From NCBI GenBank assembly GCA_009602725.1, contig WELB01000220.1:194784-228101 (forward strand): a stretch of DNA of 33,318 bases. Direction: 5' to 3'. The notes beneath the pieces are model-generated. The model saw only the letters and a program-made list of their open reading frames with translations. It searched no databases and had not been told where the DNA came from. Of the stretch, positions 120 through 20,500 are shown piece after piece; position 1 is the stretch's first letter; each line of letters begins with the position of its first letter. A program made the translations under genes and the position numbers. The DNA comes from Spirogloea muscicola. Its lineage: Eukaryota > Streptophyta > Zygnematophyceae > Spirogloeales > Spirogloeaceae.

Positions 120-345
120 TCAAGCTTGTGCCTGGCAGCGGAATAAAGCGGAAGCCCTCAAAAAGAAGAAGTGGCACTCCCAATGGGGGCAAAGGGCTGC
201 GAAAAGCCAGCCCAAAAAGAATTCACAAAGGTTCAGAGGGGCCTAAGAGCGGTGAGCAGCTACAAAGGGGCCTGAGGATGCAATGGTAAAACAGGGGGAG
301 GATGGATCACTCAATAAGTACGAGTGAGGAGCCTCAGATCCGACA
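120..345 (-). mobile_element. Family C RLE retroelement, 3' end and tail
   Basis: Read on the minus strand this is the last few codons of a family C endonuclease ORF, a stop codon and a 3' UTR. It matches the plus-strand segment 20225-20395 closely. The stop sits beside a perfect stem (TCACTC/GAGTGA at 307-312 and 322-327, 9-nt loop). The tail has a second hairpin of the GGGCTG...CAGCCC type (194-213). Everything upstream of the last codons is missing, which fits 5' truncation during target-primed reverse transcription. Confidence 0.7.
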
Positions 346-1734: not shown

Positions 1735-1905
1735 TGCGGCGTGTTCGAAACAAACGCGGCCAAATGGCCAATAAATTACAAAGGCAAGCACATCTGAAGA
1801 CCTACTTAACATTTAGCAAATTGACCCGCTCAGTAATCACGGGTCAAAACATGAAGGTCACTATCCGATGCCTGAATACTAGATGTCAGATATGAAGCCC
1901 GCGGG
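1735..1905 (-). mobile_element. Family B 3' tail
   Basis: On the minus strand: the end of the ORF, the stop-codon stem TTGACCCG/CGGGTCAA (1821-1828, 1840-1847) and the B tail with the GGCC-ATTT-GGCC palindrome. The same tail occurs at 1930-2040 (-), 9776-9880 (+) and 19916-20024 (+). Confidence 0.7.
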
Positions 1906-1929: not shown

Positions 1930-2040
1930 ATCGTGTATTAGAAAGAAATGTAGGCCAAATGGCCAGGTACAAAGGCAAGCACATCTAAAAATCTACATAA
2001 CCTACAGCAGATTGACCCGCTCAATAACCACGGGTCAAAA
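1930..2040 (-). mobile_element. Second family B 3' tail
   Basis: A second minus-strand B tail with perfect stem TTGACCCG/CGGGTCAA (2012-2019, 2031-2038) around the stop codon, then the conserved 3' UTR, the GGCC-loop-GGCC palindrome and TAATACAC near the end. It lies head-to-tail with the copy at 1735-1905. Confidence 0.75.
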
Positions 2041-2534: not shown

Positions 2535-2961
2535 AGTTCTTCCCGTTGGCCATCGACACACATGGGGCGCTGGGCGCTCGGTGGCTCGAGCTGCTCACCC
2601 AGCTCGCCCGCCACACCATCGCCCGGCGCTTCCATGGGGAGCCGGTTGACTTCCCTGCAGCCGGGTCGCTGGCGCAAGTGTATTGAATGCGCCTGGCCGT
2701 CTCGCTGCAGAGGTCCATGGCCCGGGCGCTGCACCTTCGTGCCGGCAGAGCCCTCGCTGCTGCCTCTGGCTCTGGCCAGGGGACCCACTTCCAGGAGCCC
2801 AGCATCTCTGATCTGCGGCTGCTTAGCAGGGGTTACTGAGTGTCTCGTAGCAGCTTTGTTTCTGTTACTAAGCGCTTCCCCTGGCCCCCTTCTCGTATTC
2901 TGTTCATTCTTTTTCGGGCTGGTTGTTCCAGCCCCTATTCTCAATGGGCGAGCACTTTCTT
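2535..2961 (+). mobile_element. Family A retroelement, 5'-truncated, with target duplication
   Basis: A 427-bp insertion flanked by CTTGCG (2529-2534 and 2962-2967). It begins inside the endonuclease domain at the FFPLAIDTHGALG block and ends GGGCGAGCACTTTCTT. The ORF has an internal TGA where other copies have an Arg or Leu codon after AQVY (near 2684), then continues to SRGY and the stop at 2837-2839. Hairpin GGGCTGG/CCAGCCC at 2916-2934. The duplicated segment at about 10740 has the corresponding empty site, so the insertion post-dates that duplication or is polymorphic between copies. Confidence 0.85.
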
Positions 2962-3869
2962 CTTGCGGGCTGTTGACCGAGGAAGCCACCCCGTGCCTCC
3001 CCCGCCGCAATGCGCACCGGCTTGCCCCCCCTTCGGAACGTAGCTCCTTCACCGATCCTTTAATATTAGCAGCCGCATTCTCTCCTTCACCACCTTATCG
3101 ATTATTTTCGGGCTGGCCTTTCACAGCCCTCGCTCCTCTTCTCATCACCTAATACACACTCAACTCCCCCTTTGGCCAGGTGTACATCTGTCAATGGTGC
3201 TTGCCTTTTGTACTTGGCCACTCAGGCCCTCCATCAATCAATAAACACCACTCCTTTAAGCTGGCCTCTCACAGCCACCTGTCAATTTGGAAGCGCTGAT
3301 TCCTTTGTCAGAGCACTTCTTATTCTTCAGTCTTGACCGTCTGGCCAGCCGGCCAGGACTGCTGGGGCCGTGTACTTGAGCACCCCAATGCTAGTTCACT
3401 TTAGAACCCCACTGCCAGTCCAAGCGCAGTCCGCTCCTGCGCCCGCCCCCCTTGCGTCCCACCCGGCTCAAGCAATCCAGCGCCCCAGGTACGTGCGCCC
3501 ACGCCCTCATGCAAGCGGCGTCGACAGTCGGTGTCCCTATGCTTGATGCTCTGCTTTGACAACAGTCTCGCAAGCAGTGGGGAGTTACGGTGCGCTTCGA
3601 CTAGCGATTGCTATGGTATTATGATCGTCTTCCGTATGCATGGGCTGCTAGCTCGACACACCTGGTGGCAGTGTCTATCGAGCTGTCAATGTTGAGGAGA
3701 TACCCAAACCTGAGGCCCTCAGTGTTGAAATGATACAAATTCATCTGCTCGATTATCAGCTGCAAGGTCGCTCCAGAAGCAATGCATCTGTCGCAGCAGT
3801 CCGAGTTGCATCCATTGCCACTTACCTTCTCAAGGGGCACAGTGATTGGCTTGGAGGCATTCTACAAAG

Positions 3870-4729
3870 ATGGCGACTCGAGTAATCTGCCTGGGGCTTC
3901 TGGCCATCCTGCTGGCATGCATGACACTGCTCGGTGAGTGCTCGGTGGCTGGCACATGCACGGAGATCATCAAGAGCAGAGTAGAGACACCTATGCCCTG
4001 CGGCATAACGTCGGCCAAGGCTGCCATTGTTAGTGTGCATATGGAACCTTGATAGGGGTCTTGTAGAGATCTCGGATAGCTTGCACTCTGAGGCCAAATG
4101 TTTGATCAGTGATGGGTAGGGCCAAGTGCAACAGCAGTGAAACGTACTTGGTGAACTATAGTATGGCTGGTAGAGAAGCACTTCTTTCCTACCCATTGCA
4201 GGTGGAATCAGCACGGTTGATGCTGCAAAAGGTGGCATCCATCATGGTGAGGCTCCAGACTCTAGCCACGTCGGACATGCAAATTGTCACCTGTTTCTTT
4301 GCTTAGCAATGAGATTATTCCTCCAGGAGTGCACATTGCAGCTCTTGATCAAATGCTTAATGTGTTACTTGATGGCTTGTATGGCTATGATCAGGTGGAG
4401 GCAAGAGTATGCCTGGCATGCACCTCACTCCCCACAATGGCACACGCAATGGGACCAAGTTAAAGGGAACTGCTCACAACGTGACCGCTGGACTCCCGCA
4501 CAACCATACTCTTTCCCATAAGCACCCAATTCGACCCAAGAATCGCACACTCCCCTTCAAACTACCTCAACACAATGTCACGGCTGGAGTCCGCAGAAAT
4601 CACACACTTCCACTCAATCACACACTGGTACCTCCTAAAAACCACACAGTTCCCTTAAATCACACTCATGGCAAGAAGACTGTGGAAGGAATGCATCATG
4701 GAGGCAAGAAAGGAGGCAAGCGTGGTTAG
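3870..4729 (+). CDS. Small secreted protein, rich in N-glycosylation sequons and histidine (copy 1)
   Basis: Three exons are proposed: 3870-3933, 4202-4246 and 4395-4729, giving 147 residues. Both introns are GT-AG with GTGAGT/GTGAGG donors, and both split a Gly codon in phase 1. Residues 1-21 form a typical signal peptide (MATRVICLGLLAILLACM...). Exon 2 is a short Gly-rich linker. Exon 3 holds ten N-x-T sequons (NGT, NVT, NHT, NRT) within about 75 residues, spaced by His, Pro and Leu, and ends in a basic Gly/Lys tail (GGKKGGKRG). There is no Cys after the signal peptide. I do not recognise the family. A heavily glycosylated wall, mucilage or surface protein, possibly metal-binding, is inference only. 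The duplicated copy keeps the same exon borders, which supports the model. Confidence 0.6.
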
Positions 4730-5575
4730 GGCAGCGTATACCAAGCAACTGTCAACACCTCAACTCATCGCATCCTTTAGTCTTTGTTTGGTCGTGATGC
4801 ATGTGTGCCGCATCTAGATTGTGAACAACGCATCTCTGTTGTGTCTTTCACAAGGCACTTGTGTGCCGCTGACAATCTCGTTGGCACGAGAGACTTTGCG
4901 TGTTATTTCCAGTCAGACTTGAAAGTGAGTCATGCACTTGACTAATTCATGCACACGAAGAGAAGCTATCCCCATACAGCAGCTTGCCAGATTGTAGGAT
5001 CCTGCACTGTGAGAGTTGTACCGAAGATCTTGCACCGAAGAGATTGTATCTTGTTGTGCAGTGATCTAGGAAAGTTAGGATCAAAACTAGCTTACATGGC
5101 AGGTAATTGAGGTGACTGTTTATTTGCATGTTACACATCTGCTGTCTACGTGTTTGTACATGTCCTGTGTAAGTAAAGAATCATGACATGTGAAGGGACA
5201 CATTTTGCTATTGATGACAACTATCGACTACTTTTATCACAAACGTAGCGCCTGTCACTCTAACTTATTAGCCAAACATGCTGCCTTTACCAATCTAGAA
5301 TAATACATGTTGAAGTCCTTCGAGAGGTTCGACCAACGTGTCTACTATCTACGCAAAATCCATATGTGCAGCAGTCCTGAATTTACAAAGAGGACGTCGG
5401 AAAGGCGTGCCCCATGGACACAGTCGGATGCTGATGGTGGGCAGGCTTGACGGGCATGACAAGGTTGAAAGGGACTGCCATTGCATCTGACTTCTGCGAG
5501 CTCAATAACTTGCAAAAGCAAAATTACACATAAATATATGAAGACTACTCATAACTTGTCAATTTACAGAAGTCC
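4730..5575. other. 3' flank of the secreted-protein gene
   Basis: AT-richer sequence with no convincing ORF, conserved in order with 12330-13190 in the duplicated copy. It probably contains the 3' UTR of the gene at 3870-4729. Confidence 0.4.
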
Positions 5576-5742
5576 TGCAAATGGAGACGAAGAGAACATT
5601 CTGATATGGCCTTTGCCATGCTCGACTAGCACCTACTACTCCGGCTTTGCTTCATCAAGTAGTGTGTATTTACATCCATCTTCAATGCCGTCCTTCAAAA
5701 ATTTTGCGAGCATGGAGCTCGACTTCCTCTTTAAGTACCTGT
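5576..5742 (+). other. Conserved segment of the duplication, possible exon
   Basis: An open stretch reading DEENILIWPLP...STSTYY matches 13196-13350 in the other copy, where most differences are substitutions that keep the frame. It follows an AG-like junction. The other copy continues the homology into sequence that in this copy has been displaced to 7570-7795 by the inserted LTR element and other insertions. The strand and coding status are uncertain. Confidence 0.3.
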
Positions 5743-9586: not shown

Positions 9587-9880
9587 GATGGGCTTGCCAG
9601 CTGCATGTCTGTCGCACTTGCGACGACGAATTTCGGCCTGTTTGCAATGTGCTCAGGCTAGTGCCTTGCATCAGAAAGCTGGGCGAGCTCTAGTTGGTGG
9701 CAGAAGGGCTCCGTTTCTGGCATCTAGTATTCATGCATCGATTAGTGGCCTTTATATTTTGACCCGTGGTTATTGAGCGGGTCAATCTGCTGTAGTTTAT
9801 GTAGATCTTCAGATGTGCTTGCCTTTGTACTTGGCCATTTGGCCTACGTTTGTTTCCAGTACACGAAATTTCTTCTTCCG
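9587..9880 (+). mobile_element. Family B retroelement 3' end
   Basis: A short ORF fragment (MGLPAACLSHLRRRISACLQ, then a deletion to ISGLYILTRGY; stop 9774-9776). A perfect 8-bp stem around the stop follows (TTGACCCG 9759-9766, CGGGTCAA 9778-9785, 11-nt loop), then the B tail with GGCC-ATTT-GGCC and ACACGA near the end. Confidence 0.75.
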
Positions 9881-10430: not shown

Positions 10431-11508
10431 GGCTGCCCGCTTTCTCTTTGGGCTGGCCTCTCCTAGCCACCAGGCAATGTGGCCGCGCTTGCCTCTTCTT
10501 CAGGGCTGGCATTCACAGCCGTGCCCCACTTTCCATTCACTCAACGCGCTGTCCGTTTCCCGCCCGACCTTCAAATTCATTCTGACCTGCAAATTTCTCA
10601 AATATACACGAAAAGTTCTTGGGCGGAAGCGTATCTACGCATCCGCCCACGCGCTGGCCGCATGAGTTCGTGGATCTGCGTGGCCAGCTCGCCGCGCCAC
10701 GTGATCTGCTCACCTGCCGGGCCATGACTGACCGGCGGCCTGCAGGCTGTTGACTGAGGAAGCCACCCCGTACCTCCGCCACCGCCAAGCGCACCGGCTT
10801 GGCCCCTTGGACAATCAGCTTCTTCACCGCCTTGTCGCCCCCTTTTACATCACTCAATACACACTCCACTCCCCCTTTTGCCAGGTGACGTACATCTGTC
10901 AATGTGGTTGCCTCTGTACTTGGCCACTCAGGCCCTCCATCACCCAATACACACCACTTCATTGGCCAAGCTCATATCTTATTCTTCAGTCTTGACCGGC
11001 TGGCCAGCCCGCCAGGACTGCTGGGGCCGTCTACTTAAACATCCCACTGCCAGTCCAAGCGCACTTCGCTCCTGCGCCCCCCCATCTCCTGTCGCACCCG
11101 GCTCAAGCACCCCCGCGCCCCAGGTACGTGCGCTCACGCTTTTTGCAAGCGGCGTCGGCAGTCGATGTCCTGATGCTTGATGCTCTGCTTTCATAGCAGT
11201 CTCGCTAGTAAGGGAGTCATGATGCGCTTCGACTGGCGTTTCTAACGTGTGCTATGATCATGGGCTGCTAGCTCCGTATACATGGGCTGCTAGCTCGGCA
11301 CCCCTGGTGGCAGTGTGTGTTGAAAGCTGTCAAGGCATTGAGCAGATATGCAAGCGTGAGGCTCAAGTTGAAGGGTTTCAATTCCACCGGCTCGATCATC
11401 ATCTGCAAGGTCGCCCAAGAAGCAATGCATCTGTTGCAGCACTCCAATCGTTCATTTCCACTTATTTTCTCAAGGGCACGGCGATCGGCTTGCAGGCTTC
11501 TTGCGAAG

Positions 11509-12300
11509 ATGGCGACTCGAGTAAGTTGTGTAGCGCTCCTGGCCATCCTGCTGGCATGTATGATACTGCTTGGTGAGTGCTCGGTGGCTAACAGGCCTGC
11601 ACGGATCAATCAAGAGCACCTATGCTCTGCGGCATAACGTCAGCCAAGGCTGCCATTGTTAGTGTGCATACGGAACCTTGATAGGGGTCTTGTAGAGATC
11701 TCGGGTAGCTTGCACTTTGAGGCCAAATGTTTGATCAGTGATGGGTAGGGCTAAGTGCAAAAGCAGTGAAACGTACTTGGTTGAATATAGTATGGCTGGT
11801 AGAGAAGCACTTCTTTCCTACCCATTGCAGGTGGAATCAGCGCGGTTGATGCTGCAAAAGGTGGCATCCATCATGGTGAGGCTCCAGACTCTAGCCACGT
11901 CGGACATGCAAATTGTCACCTGTTTCTTTGCTTAGCAATAAGATTCATCCTCCAGGAGTGGCACATTGCAGCACTTGATCAAATGCTTAATGTGTTACTT
12001 GATGGCTCGTATGGCTATGATCAGGTGGAAGCAAGAGTATGCCTGGCATGCACCTCACTCCCCACAATGGCACACGCACTGGGACCAAGTTGAACGGAAC
12101 TGCTCATAACGTGACCACTGGACTCCCGCACAACCATACTCTTTCACATAAGCACCCCATTCGACCCAAGAATCGCACACTCCCTTCAAACTACCTCAAC
12201 ACAATGTCACGGCTGGAGTCCGCAAAAACCACACACTTCCACTCAATCACACACTCCCCTTCAACCACACTCATGGCCAAAAGACTACGGAAGGAGTGTA
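11509..12300 (+). pseudogene. Secreted sequon-rich protein, copy 2, frameshifted
   Basis: Same three-exon layout as copy 1: 11509-11572, 11831-11875 and from 12025, with identical exon lengths and phases for exons 1-2. The signal peptide is conserved (MATRVSCVALLAILLACM). In exon 3 one C is missing from a run of C near 12180-12186 relative to copy 1. This shifts the frame after the NRT sequon and replaces the rest of the sequon-rich tail with an unrelated reading that stays open to 12671. It is either a recent pseudogene or a single-base assembly error; the abandoned frame downstream still encodes NHT sequons. Confidence 0.6.
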
Positions 12301-12309
12301 TCATGCAGA

Positions 12310-13190
12310 AAAGAAAGGAGGCAAGCGTGGTTAGGGCTGTGTATACCAAGCGATTGTCAACACCTCAACTCATAGCATTCATTGGTCGTGATGCATGTAT
12401 GCCCCATCTAGCTTCATGGACCACGTATCTCTATCATGTCTTTTACAAGGCACTTGTGTGCCGCTGTCAAACTCGTTGCCTCGAGATTGTCCTATTTTCC
12501 CCCGTCAGACTTGAAGTGAGTCTTGCTCCTGACCGGCTCATGCACAAGAAAGAAGAGAAACACTCCCGTACAGCAGCTTGCCAAAATGTGAGATCCTGCA
12601 CTGTGAGAGTGGCAACTCTTGGCACCGAAGATCTTGCAGCTTGGTTTTGCAGTGATCTAGAAAAATCATGATCTGAACTAGCTTACATGGCAGACAATTG
12701 GGGGACCGTTTGTTTGCATGTCAAATACGTGCTGTCTACATGATTGCGTGATTGCAATGTAAATTGACATTTCAAGACATGTGAAAGGATACATTCTGCT
12801 ATCAATGCCACTTACAGATTACTTTTGTACAAACGTAGTACTGTCACTCTTGTATGATATCCAAAGTAAACTCAAGTACCGTGACCAACCTAGAATTACA
12901 CAAGTTGAAGTCCTTCGAGAGGGTCCGACCAACGTGTCAATCAAAAGCAAGATCGATGTGTGCAGCTGTCCTAATATATGAAGAGGAAATAAGAAAAGCG
13001 TACCCTGCAAAGCCACACATCTTTGGACATAGTCGGCTGCTGATGATGGGCACGCTTGACGGGCATGACAAGGTTGAAAGGATCAGCCAACGTGTCTGGT
13101 TTCTGAGGGCTCAAAGGCTTGCAAGAGCACATGTACAAATTAATATTTATTCTCTGAATTCTACTTATGACCTGATGACTTGCAAACCTC
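12310..13190. other. 3' flank of copy 2, no gene seen
   Basis: Follows the same order as 4730-5570. ORFs here are short and not conserved between the two copies. Confidence 0.4.
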
Positions 13191-13499
13191 GTGCAGATGA
13201 AGACGAAGAGAACGTTCTGATATGGCCTTTGCCATACTCGACTAGCACCTACTACTTCGGCTTTGCTTCATCAGGTAGTGTGTATTTACATCTATCTCCA
13301 TATTCTGCCTCGTAAATTGCTGAGCATGGATTTCGACTTCCTCTATCAGTATCTGTTGCAAGAAAAGTCACTTGAATCCCATGACTATTGTCCCTTTGAT
13401 AGTCAGATAGCCTCATACGGCATCCAAAAGCAGAGCATGCATCAAGTCGACCAGTGTGCATTTGAGCTGCGAGTGTTTGAAGGGGCCACATTACGTAGG

Positions 13500-13795
13500 G
13501 GCCTAAAGCGCTATTTCAGAACGGGTGTAGGATGGACCACTCAATCACAACGAGTGAGGAGCCTCAAATGCGACAGACTAGCTGCCGGAAAACAATCCCC
13601 CTGGCGAAAGCCAGAGGCTGCACCGAGAGCACAGCCAGCACGCAGATGCAAGGCCTGGGCCATGGACCGCTGCAGGGAGATGGACAAGCGCATGCGGTAG
13701 ACCTGGGCCAACGAGCCAGCGGCGTTAAAGTCAGCCTGCTCACCTAGCCTGCGGGACACAGCACGCCGCGCAAGCCTGAAAGGTGGGAAAGGGCA
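13500..13795 (-). pseudogene. Family C RLE endonuclease C-terminus
   Basis: On the minus strand: FNAAGSLAQVYRMRLSISLQRSMAQ, ALHLRAG, FRQGDCFPAASLSHLRLLTRCD and a stop at 13541-13543. The stop-region stem is CACTC/GAGTG (13538-13542, 13552-13556), plus a T-G wobble at the next position. Only the last part of the domain is present. Confidence 0.65.
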
Positions 13796-13799
13796 GCCC

Positions 13800-14226
13800 A
13801 AAACGAATGGACAAGGACCGAAGAGCCAAAATTGCCGAGAATAAGCACAGCTAGACACAAGACGACCGCAGAAAGAAGCTTAGTACCCACGAGTAAGCAG
13901 CAGCAAGTCCGAGTCACTCGTAGCTGGGAAAGGGGCACTCCGTTAAGACCCAGATGCAGCAGCCATGGCTCGGCCTGCTCGCCAGCGGACTGCGTGAGCC
14001 AGAGAGCACTGGAAAGCGACTGACAGCCGCACGCAAAAGACCTGTGCAAGCGATCCGGCAGCGCTGAAGCCGGGCAGCTCCCCTGGCTGACCCGGCCACA
14101 GATGGATGGCCTGTTGGGCAAGGCGCTGGAGAAGGTCCTGCCAAAAGCCCCGTGGACGTCGATTGCAAGTGCCGCGAATACATCACCAGCAGGGTGATTA
14201 GCATACTTATTTACGCTCCTTGCCAC
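13800..14226 (-). pseudogene. Family F RLE endonuclease remnant
   Basis: On the minus strand: NKYANHPAGDVFAALAIDVHGAFG, then frameshifts, and the C-terminus SDLLLLTRGY with a TAA stop (13880-13882). The stop lies in the stem GCTTA/TAAGC (13878-13882, 13894-13898). The copy at 20380-20487 is a close relative that ends in TGA instead. Confidence 0.6.
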
Positions 14227-18366: not shown

Positions 18367-19111
18367 NNNNNNNNNNNNNNNNNNNNNNNNNNNNNNNNNN
18401 NNNNNNNNNNNNNNNNNNNNNNNNNNNNNNNNNNNNNNNNNNNNNNNNNNNNNNNNNNNNNNNNNNNNNNNNNNNNNNNNNNNNNNNNNNNNNNNNNNNN
18501 NNNNNNNNNNNNNNNNNNNNNNNNNNNNNNNNNNNNNNNNNNNNNNNNNNNNNNNNNNNNNNNNNNNNNNNNNNNNNNNNNNNNNNNNNNNNNNNNNNNN
18601 NNNNNNNNNNNNNNNNNNNNNNNNNNNNNNNNNNNNNNNNNNNNNNNNNNNNNNNNNNNNNNNNNNNNNNNNNNNNNNNNNNNNNNNNNNNNNNNNNNNN
18701 NNNNNNNNNNNNNNNNNNNNNNNNNNNNNNNNNNNNNNNNNNNNNNNNNNNNNNNNNNNNNNNNNNNNNNNNNNNNNNNNNNNNNNNNNNNNNNNNNNNN
18801 NNNNNNNNNNNNNNNNNNNNNNNNNNNNNNNNNNNNNNNNNNNNNNNNNNNNNNNNNNNNNNNNNNNNNNNNNNNNNNNNNNNNNNNNNNNNNNNNNNNN
18901 NNNNNNNNNNNNNNNNNNNNNNNNNNNNNNNNNNNNNNNNNNNNNNNNNNNNNNNNNNNNNNNNNNNNNNNNNNNNNNNNNNNNNNNNNNNNNNNNNNNN
19001 NNNNNNNNNNNNNNNNNNNNNNNNNNNNNNNNNNNNNNNNNNNNNNNNNNNNNNNNNNNNNNNNNNNNNNNNNNNNNNNNNNNNNNNNNNNNNNNNNNNN
19101 NNNNNNNNNNN
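18367..19111. other. Assembly gap (N run)
   Basis: 745 undetermined bases. Open frames crossing it are artefacts. Confidence 1.
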
Positions 19112-19315
19112 GCTGCTGGCACAAGAGCTAGTCAATTGCCGTCCGGTATTCGAGCGTCAGCTAGCGACCTCTATGTGCTGACTCGTGGTTACTGAGCGGG
19201 TCAGCTTAGCAGCAGGTGACGTACATTTGTCCAATGTGCTTGCCTTTGTACTTGGCCACACATGGCCTCCCCATCTCTTAATATACACGCATTTCCTGCC
19301 TCATCGGGGTCTAAC
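19112..19315 (+). mobile_element. Family B' 3' end
   Basis: Last codons SDLYVLTRGY with TGA at 19193-19195, stem TGACTCG/CGGGTCA (19179-19185, 19197-19203; one T-G wobble), tail with GGCC-ACACAT-GGCC, matching 6895-7010 in inverse orientation. Confidence 0.7.
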
Positions 19316-20379: not shown

Positions 20380-20500
20380 TTGCCACGCGCGGGCTGTGCT
20401 GTGGCTGCTGCTTCCGGGTCTCGGCAGAGTGCCACTTCTCCTGCTCCGAGTTACTCTGATCTGCTGTTGCTCACACGTGGATACTGAGCAGCCATCTGCA
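20380..20500 (+). pseudogene. Family F C-terminal fragment
   Basis: Reads AVAAASGSRQSATSPAPSYSDLLLLTRGY with TGA at 20485-20487. Stem GTTGCTC/GAGCAGC (20466-20472, 20486-20492) with one wobble. Relative of 13800-13900 (-). Confidence 0.6.

Follow-up and report, generated by a model that had tools for sequence, protein, structure and literature searches.

In non-LTR retrotransposons, recognition of a stem-loop in the 3' tail by the reverse transcriptase (RT) is established for LINEs of fish (PMC4176376), and in plants LINEs of the L1 clade carry a conserved 3'-end hairpin with compensatory changes (PMC3747384). SINEs from Chlamydomonas (SINEX) share the tails of RandI/Dualen LINEs (PMC3747384), and the RLE clades have been outlined in PMC4640811. 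A literature search, which left many subscription papers outside its reach, brought up no stop-centred hairpin described for non-LTR elements. For the window studied here, by which we mean the whole stretch of 33,318 nt from Spirogloea muscicola (contig C220, positions 194784-228101), a preliminary description had proposed that the stop codons of several retroelement families sit in a stem whose arms covary. Our analysis leads to a narrower picture, in which we place about even confidence: in F0, the commonest family of our sample, the stop codon lies within an auxiliary 3'-UTR hairpin, and elsewhere the stems are largely chance complementarity. The claim of covariation across families fails.

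The C-terminus that the families were said to share was confirmed and proved to be abundant. Genome-wide pattern searches (153 Mb, 471 contigs) gave 7,378 matches for LTRGY-stop versus 6 for the reversed control pattern, 3,952 versus 7 for SRGY-stop, and 419 versus 10 for LTRTY-stop. There are thus about 11,700 retroelement 3' ends, counted as pattern matches, with a nearly invariant C-terminal peptide despite UTRs that are unrelated between families. The families appear to be non-LTR retrotransposons from a single lineage, and the end of their protein, L-(T/S)-R-G-Y-stop, is strongly conserved. The main sample comprised 100 LTRGY-stop places among the matches listed, all of them on contig C1, of which 51 belong to F0. 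Further copies came from 34 of 100 listed LTRGY-stop places with A or T at +4, chosen to enrich rare families, as well as from 13 of 100 listed LTRTY-stop and 13 of 100 listed SRGY-stop places, and 15 of the 16 matches within the window were added, the remaining one having no flank. A hairpin-independent sample was built from a 25-mer of the F0 UTR with 1,889 genome matches, whereby 40 of 100 listed places were fetched and joined with 24 C1 copies already sampled; the resulting 64 copies represent all C1 and C2 places among the matches listed.

Broken 3' ends of retroelements are numerous in the window. It also holds two copies of a segment of about 2.3 kb, 7.6 kb apart (3318-5684 and 10977-13300, pieces 80-96% alike), each with a histidine/asparagine-rich ORF (at 4409 and 12039), and an N run lies within a retroelement region at 18367-19111. 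All eight stems listed in the preliminary description are present as letters, five of them on the minus strand (Table 1). For their comparison we use the register, i.e., the sum i+j of the positions of two paired bases, counted from the first base of the stop codon.

Table 1. Stop-adjacent stems and related features, with positions in the window or, for family F8, the copies concerned.
Feature	Position or copy	Strand	Detail
F0 clade b hairpin GCTGACTCGT/GCGGGTCAGC, 10 bp with two G-U, register -4	19177..19205	+	stop 19193-19195 in loop
F0 clade a hairpin TTGACCCG/CGGGTCAA, 8 bp (9 with G-U), register -4	9759..9785	+	stop 9774-9776 in loop
F0 clade a copy, 5' truncation just upstream of stem, register -4	2012..2038	-	
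F0 copy with LTRDY-stop replacing LTRGY-stop, same stem, register -4	1821..1847	-	
F4 (LTRTY-stop) stem TCACTC/GAGTGA, register -8	307..328	-	
F4-like copy (LTRCD-stop), CACTC/GAGTG, register -8	13538..13558	-	UTR-shuffle P 0.030
Stem GTTGCTC(A)/(T)GAGCAGC, 8 bp with one G-U, register -12	20466..20492	+	stop TGA 20485-20487 in 3' arm
Stem GCTTA/TAAGC, 5 bp, register -12	13878..13898	-	2/5 pairs codon-fixed (Leu, Thr, stop); recoding P 0.91
3'-UTR hairpin GGGCTGG/CCAGCCC of SRGY-stop copy (family A, F5); occurs in UTRs of several families	2916..2934	+	
F8 stem, stop codon as triloop of GGGGATAT-TRA-GTGTCCCC	L117, L105		UTR-shuffle P 0.056, recoding P 0.024
C-terminal peptide copies in the window	1261, 2822, 9759, 17552, 19178, 20470, 20930, 21280	+	others on -

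Folding of the stems in a 66-nt context separated them. The 9759 hairpin is part of the minimum-energy structure (z -1.97, 7/200 shuffles as good), that at 19178 appears in both the minimum-energy and the centroid structure (z -0.51), and the 307 hairpin is found in the minimum-energy structure as well (z -1.59). The stem at 20466 is absent from its fold (z +1.13), 179 of 200 shuffles folding at least as well, and absent are also those at 13878 (z 0.09) and, from the minimum-energy fold, at 13538 (z -1.21). The GGGCTGG/CCAGCCC hairpin in the copy at 1261 gave a P of 0.010 against shuffles, and Rfam yielded no match in the window at gathering score.

In F0 the UTR starts with GCGGGTCA(A/G), which is complementary to the L-T-R codons, and sequence and predicted fold give a hairpin of 9-10 bp with the stop codon in the loop. 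The pairs from -14 to -7 are standard in 86-92 of 92 aligned copies; since most of these copies were picked for LTRGY-stop, the 5' arm is partly kept by the choice of copies, from which the 3' arm is free. Pair -10/+6 is C-G or T-G at about equal frequency among the 92 copies. Two clades split at -15/+11 (T-A versus C-G), a pair that is broken in several sublineages of clade a, and at -16/+12 four copies have A-T for G-C, but 38 of the 92 have T-T. Clades a and b have the same 3' arm, GCGGGTCA (8/8), whereas the UTR beyond it matches only at scattered positions. In clade a this arm is less variable than the ten bases that follow (0.031 versus 0.070), in clade b it is not (0.037 versus 0.023). 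In two copies of the L143 lineage (L143, which is the same place as L232, and L233) the stem is longer by two pairs.

Covariation within F0 was assessed with 30 of the 92 copies, 26 of them distinct. Double-changed cells numbered 13 compared to 5.5 in shuffles (reached in 0/500), and the covariation score was 0.151 compared to 0.130 (10/500), whereas the number of pairs with a double change showed no excess (3, with 2.2 expected from shuffles; 166/500). A raised double-change count without more changed pairs is what one clade split would give. The consensus folding that had been suggested as a check recovered the stem, since RNAalifold returned nine pairs as the alignment consensus for F0, but its covariation term is only -0.09 kcal/mol. 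F0 covariation thus amounts to about one clade split, with wobbles and a single compensatory pair that distinguishes the two clades, and no repeated compensatory change across lineages was seen in the 30 copies. A spike of truncations at the hairpin was an impression from copies selected for LTRGY, and it was gone in the 64 copies picked on the UTR 25-mer alone, where four truncation points fall in -30 to -15, four in -15 to +12, one in -60 to -30, and 20 in -150 to -60.

The main competitor, to which we give a considerable but clearly lower than even probability, is that all stems including that of F0 are chance complementarity of a protein-fixed codon string and short UTRs, with nothing selected at the RNA level. 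The absent truncation spike and the small covariation term speak for it, and so does the lack of enrichment at registers -4, -8, and -12 (see below), whereas the 8/8 conservation of the F0 3' arm between clades speaks against it. Chance was addressed by three kinds of controls. When the best stop-crossing hairpin was compared with shuffles of 18 UTR bases in 12 copies picked by eye, P was 0.003 for F0 clade b, 0.004 for F0 clade a, and 0.0004 for L143, three F0 copies of different lineages that speak against chance alone. For F4 (L138, another copy of the family of 307) and for another copy (L046) of the family of 20466 it was 0.010 each, followed by F8 (0.056), F3 (0.082), and five others (0.19-0.69). 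An F0 stem with a P of 0.003 among about ten superfamilies is only moderately surprising family-wise. The nine families without F0 still gave a Fisher P of 0.0016, which likewise runs counter to pure chance, as does the Fisher P of 0.005 for 26 non-F0 copies among 33 group representatives; five of these 26 had P < 0.05, whereby the 26 are partly related and three of the five belong to superfamily F4. In the comparison region from +40 to +150 of the UTR, the best hairpin reached P < 0.05 in 11 of the 33 representatives, several of them of the GGGCTGG/CCAGCCC type.

In a second control, own ORF/UTR pairs were compared with natural UTRs exchanged between families. For 21 families picked by eye, the contiguous stem gave a P of 0.076 and the minimum free energy a P of 0.012. 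With duplex energy the wide window gave 0.0002 with F0, 0.006 without F0, and 0.013 without F0 and F8, the narrow window 0.0009, 0.022, and 0.049, respectively. With objective clusters (medians of 20 picks, two windows; 21 of 174 copies dropped for want of a partner), the median P including F0 was 0.0000 for 66 groups, 0.003/0.0000 for 33, 0.025/0.013 for 14, and 0.12/0.016 for six. Without F0 it was 0.03/0.009 at the finest grouping (51 groups), and at coarser groupings 0.36/0.17 (26 groups), 0.09/0.14 (12 groups), and 0.24/0.17 (five groups). A swap based on a hairpin statistic (medians of 30 picks, with seven further copies left out as chimeric, decayed, or odd) gave 0.0000 (27 groups) and 0.015 (10 groups) with F0, and without F0 it was not significant (0.20 for 22 groups, 0.09 for nine). 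The swap signal is thus clear when F0 is included and largely vanishes when it is left out; the five non-significant groupings without F0 speak for chance complementarity, and the hand-picked set without F0 (0.006-0.022) and the 51 groups argue against it.

Codon-preserving controls had also been asked for, and synonymous recoding gave P 0.07-0.09 for F0. Among 14 non-F0 copies there was an excess in copies of F2 (0.013 twice), F8 (0.024), and F4 (0.032), two F1 copies gave 0.05 and 0.08, and the remaining eight ranged from 0.25 to 0.91. The F0 values and the eight copies above 0.2 fit the assumption that nothing is selected, the copies of F2, F4, and F8 do not. The codon frequencies for recoding were pooled from 97 copies, among which F0 probably has too large a share, and because of this and of the protein fixing most of the 5' arm the test has little power. 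In F7 (L020, L135) and F5 (L151, L152) no stem was better than the controls; in F2 no contiguous one was, its recoding P of 0.013 resulting from a bulged pairing. As finer clustering, the hand-picked set, and the UTR shuffles give some excess, there may be a weak general tendency to stop-adjacent pairing outside F0.

We return to the reading that we prefer, an auxiliary hairpin in F0, and to the element that carries it. One F0 copy (L218) lies in an open frame of 1,267 aa, the last 786 residues of which were read. Pfam identified RVT_1 at residues 73-271 of this piece (E 4.5e-19), and PDB matches comprised the reverse transcriptases of group II introns, R2, and LINE-1. Downstream of the RT, C-x-C...H-x4-C and R-x-D...DV stretches were seen by eye, which we take to resemble the knuckle and the endonuclease of RLE-type elements; the C-terminal part gave neither a Pfam match nor a PDB profile match, and its predicted model (mean pLDDT 42.7) was too poor for use. 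As in a LINE, the F0 ORF encodes an RT domain, and the copies share their 3' end but differ in 5' truncation, the truncation points of the 64 copies being spread over ORF and UTR. Depending on the family, the common 3' end lies some 90 to 150 nt behind the stop codon, and F0 homology ends about 90-105 nt behind it in most copies. Of 150 scored F0 matches, nine fall in a frame that is open for exactly 1,267 aa, and many show no difference across the 80-aa query, so that F0 looks recently active. On contig C1, near 1556679, a truncated F2 3' end (L071/L175) stands head-to-head at the Leu codon with an F0 tail on the opposite strand.

Three of the 64 copies (L165, L176, L198) turned out to be a different, non-autonomous element, here called G, in which the similarity to F0 is confined to the part from about +36 onwards. 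The F0 hairpin lies about 25 nt upstream of this tail of about 60 nt. A search with the core of element G led to nine loci, eight of which read likewise (L223 is the copy L176, and L226 was not placed by the motif), so that G is represented by L223-L225, L227-L231, L165, and L198, with a C-rich repetitive upstream part. Its 70-nt core is spanned nearly or fully by 24 of 40 scored matches (134 candidates). Just upstream of the shared tail G has a 9-10 bp hairpin of its own, TAGCAGCTCC...GAGCTGCTA, in nine of ten folds, the exception being L165, which is truncated at the G hairpin and folds differently. Hence the F0 hairpin is not within the tail shared with G, and the upstream hairpin of G is unrelated to it in sequence. 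Because G shares only the last ~60 nt, these are likely the recognised tail, and it is likely this tail and not the stop hairpin that is the recognised part.

In the mechanism that we propose, the F0 hairpin would form an auxiliary, 5'-bordering part of a folded 3' UTR, and this folded UTR would be the template for the element's own reverse transcriptase in target-primed reverse transcription. That the hairpin spans the stop codon would be no more than a consequence of the short UTR, which measures about 100 nt. The hairpin may have a role in RT recognition, and against such a role speaks that element G has the tail without the F0 hairpin sequence. Between families, the stems would be mostly local complementarity of the fixed codon string with whichever 3' UTR follows, and the apparent stems at register -12 would be helped by two codon-fixed pairs. 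It could also be that a hairpin of any sequence and register is needed about 25 nt upstream of the RT-recognised tail, which F0 would build with its terminal codons and the beginning of the UTR, G with unrelated sequence, and the other families loosely. The position would then be conserved instead of the pairs and would overlap the coding end; we regard this as unlikely.

Somewhat less likely still, in our view improbable, is the model of the preliminary description, namely a stop-centred RNA element conserved across families by covariation and serving RT binding, stop-codon control, or end protection. That the RT of fish LINEs recognises a stem-loop in their 3' tail (PMC4176376) lends it some plausibility, and the weak general pairing excess over shuffled UTRs, and over swapped UTRs in some groupings, agrees with it. 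However, arms that differ yet stay complementary imply homologous pairs, and the named stems fall in three registers that differ between families: -4 (1821, 2012, 9759, 19178), -8 (307, 13538), and -12 (20466, 13878). Their pairs are therefore not homologous, and since the bases of different families do not correspond, the differences between arms are no covariation. In none of these three registers did pairing exceed that obtained with permuted UTRs. Registers -1 to +2 gave P 0.013-0.053 with 33 groups, before correction for 38 registers, and with 14 groups no register reached a z of 1.5.

The comparison of 13878 with 20466, put forward as the cleanest pair because the Leu wobble base and the middle base of the stop codon change together, does not hold either. 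Two pairs of register -12, -14/+2 and -12/0, are Watson-Crick in 174/174 copies, as dictated by the codons (Leu YTN, Thr ACN or Ser AGY, stop TRA) and by search patterns derived from these codons; the Leu T pairs with the stop A and the Thr A with the stop T. The inner pair that remains free, between the Leu wobble base and the middle base of the stop, shows no association (Fisher P = 1.0 over 33 groups, copy-level P = 0.33; group-level counts C-G 13, C-A 5, T-G 6, T-A 2), CTC with TAA and CTT with TGA occurring about as freely as the reverse. Only among copies with GC after the stop, mostly of superfamily F1, do the counts lean towards the proposed model (C-G 18, C-A 1, T-A 1, T-G 1). Moreover, neither 20466 nor 13878 folds as proposed, F7 and F5 lack a stem above controls, and F2 lacks a contiguous one, though its bulged pairing stands out upon recoding. 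Of the stop-centred element there thus remain the plausible F0 hairpin and a weak tendency elsewhere, whereas the form that covaries across families is lost. That the F0 hairpin modulates translation termination (readthrough or 3'-end protection) and not reverse transcription is suggested by nothing but its position, with the stop in the loop, and is very improbable given that other families with the same C-terminus have no significant stem.

If the F0 hairpin works in template recognition, part of a retrotransposon RNA signal would lie inside coding sequence, and a conserved C-terminal peptide would be linked to RNA structure. If it does not, the case would be a warning: with a conserved terminal peptide and a stop codon, some pairs arise automatically and few positions stay free, so that stems found by eye around the stops of repeat families look more convincing than they are.

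Among known systems, R2-type/RLE elements resemble F0 in having one long ORF with an RT followed by stretches that resemble the knuckle and RLE, and R2 proteins are among the PDB matches; unlike them, the C-terminal part of F0 is without a Pfam or PDB match. Plant L1-clade LINEs and SINEs and the RandI/Dualen-SINEX pairs of Chlamydomonas are comparable with regard to their 3' hairpins and, in a green alga, to the sharing of tails between LINE and SINE. In these cases the hairpins are at the 3' end, whereas the F0 stem spans the stop codon and showed no repeated compensatory change in the copies sampled. In the stringent-type LINEs ZfL2-1, ZfL2-2, and UnaL2 the recognised stem-loop is in the 3' tail (PMC4176376), whereas the predicted hairpin of F0 spans the stop and is upstream of the shared tail. 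These three LINEs and F0 are all non-LTR elements whose 3' UTR contains a stem-loop and which have a tail in common with a non-autonomous element, in the present case G.
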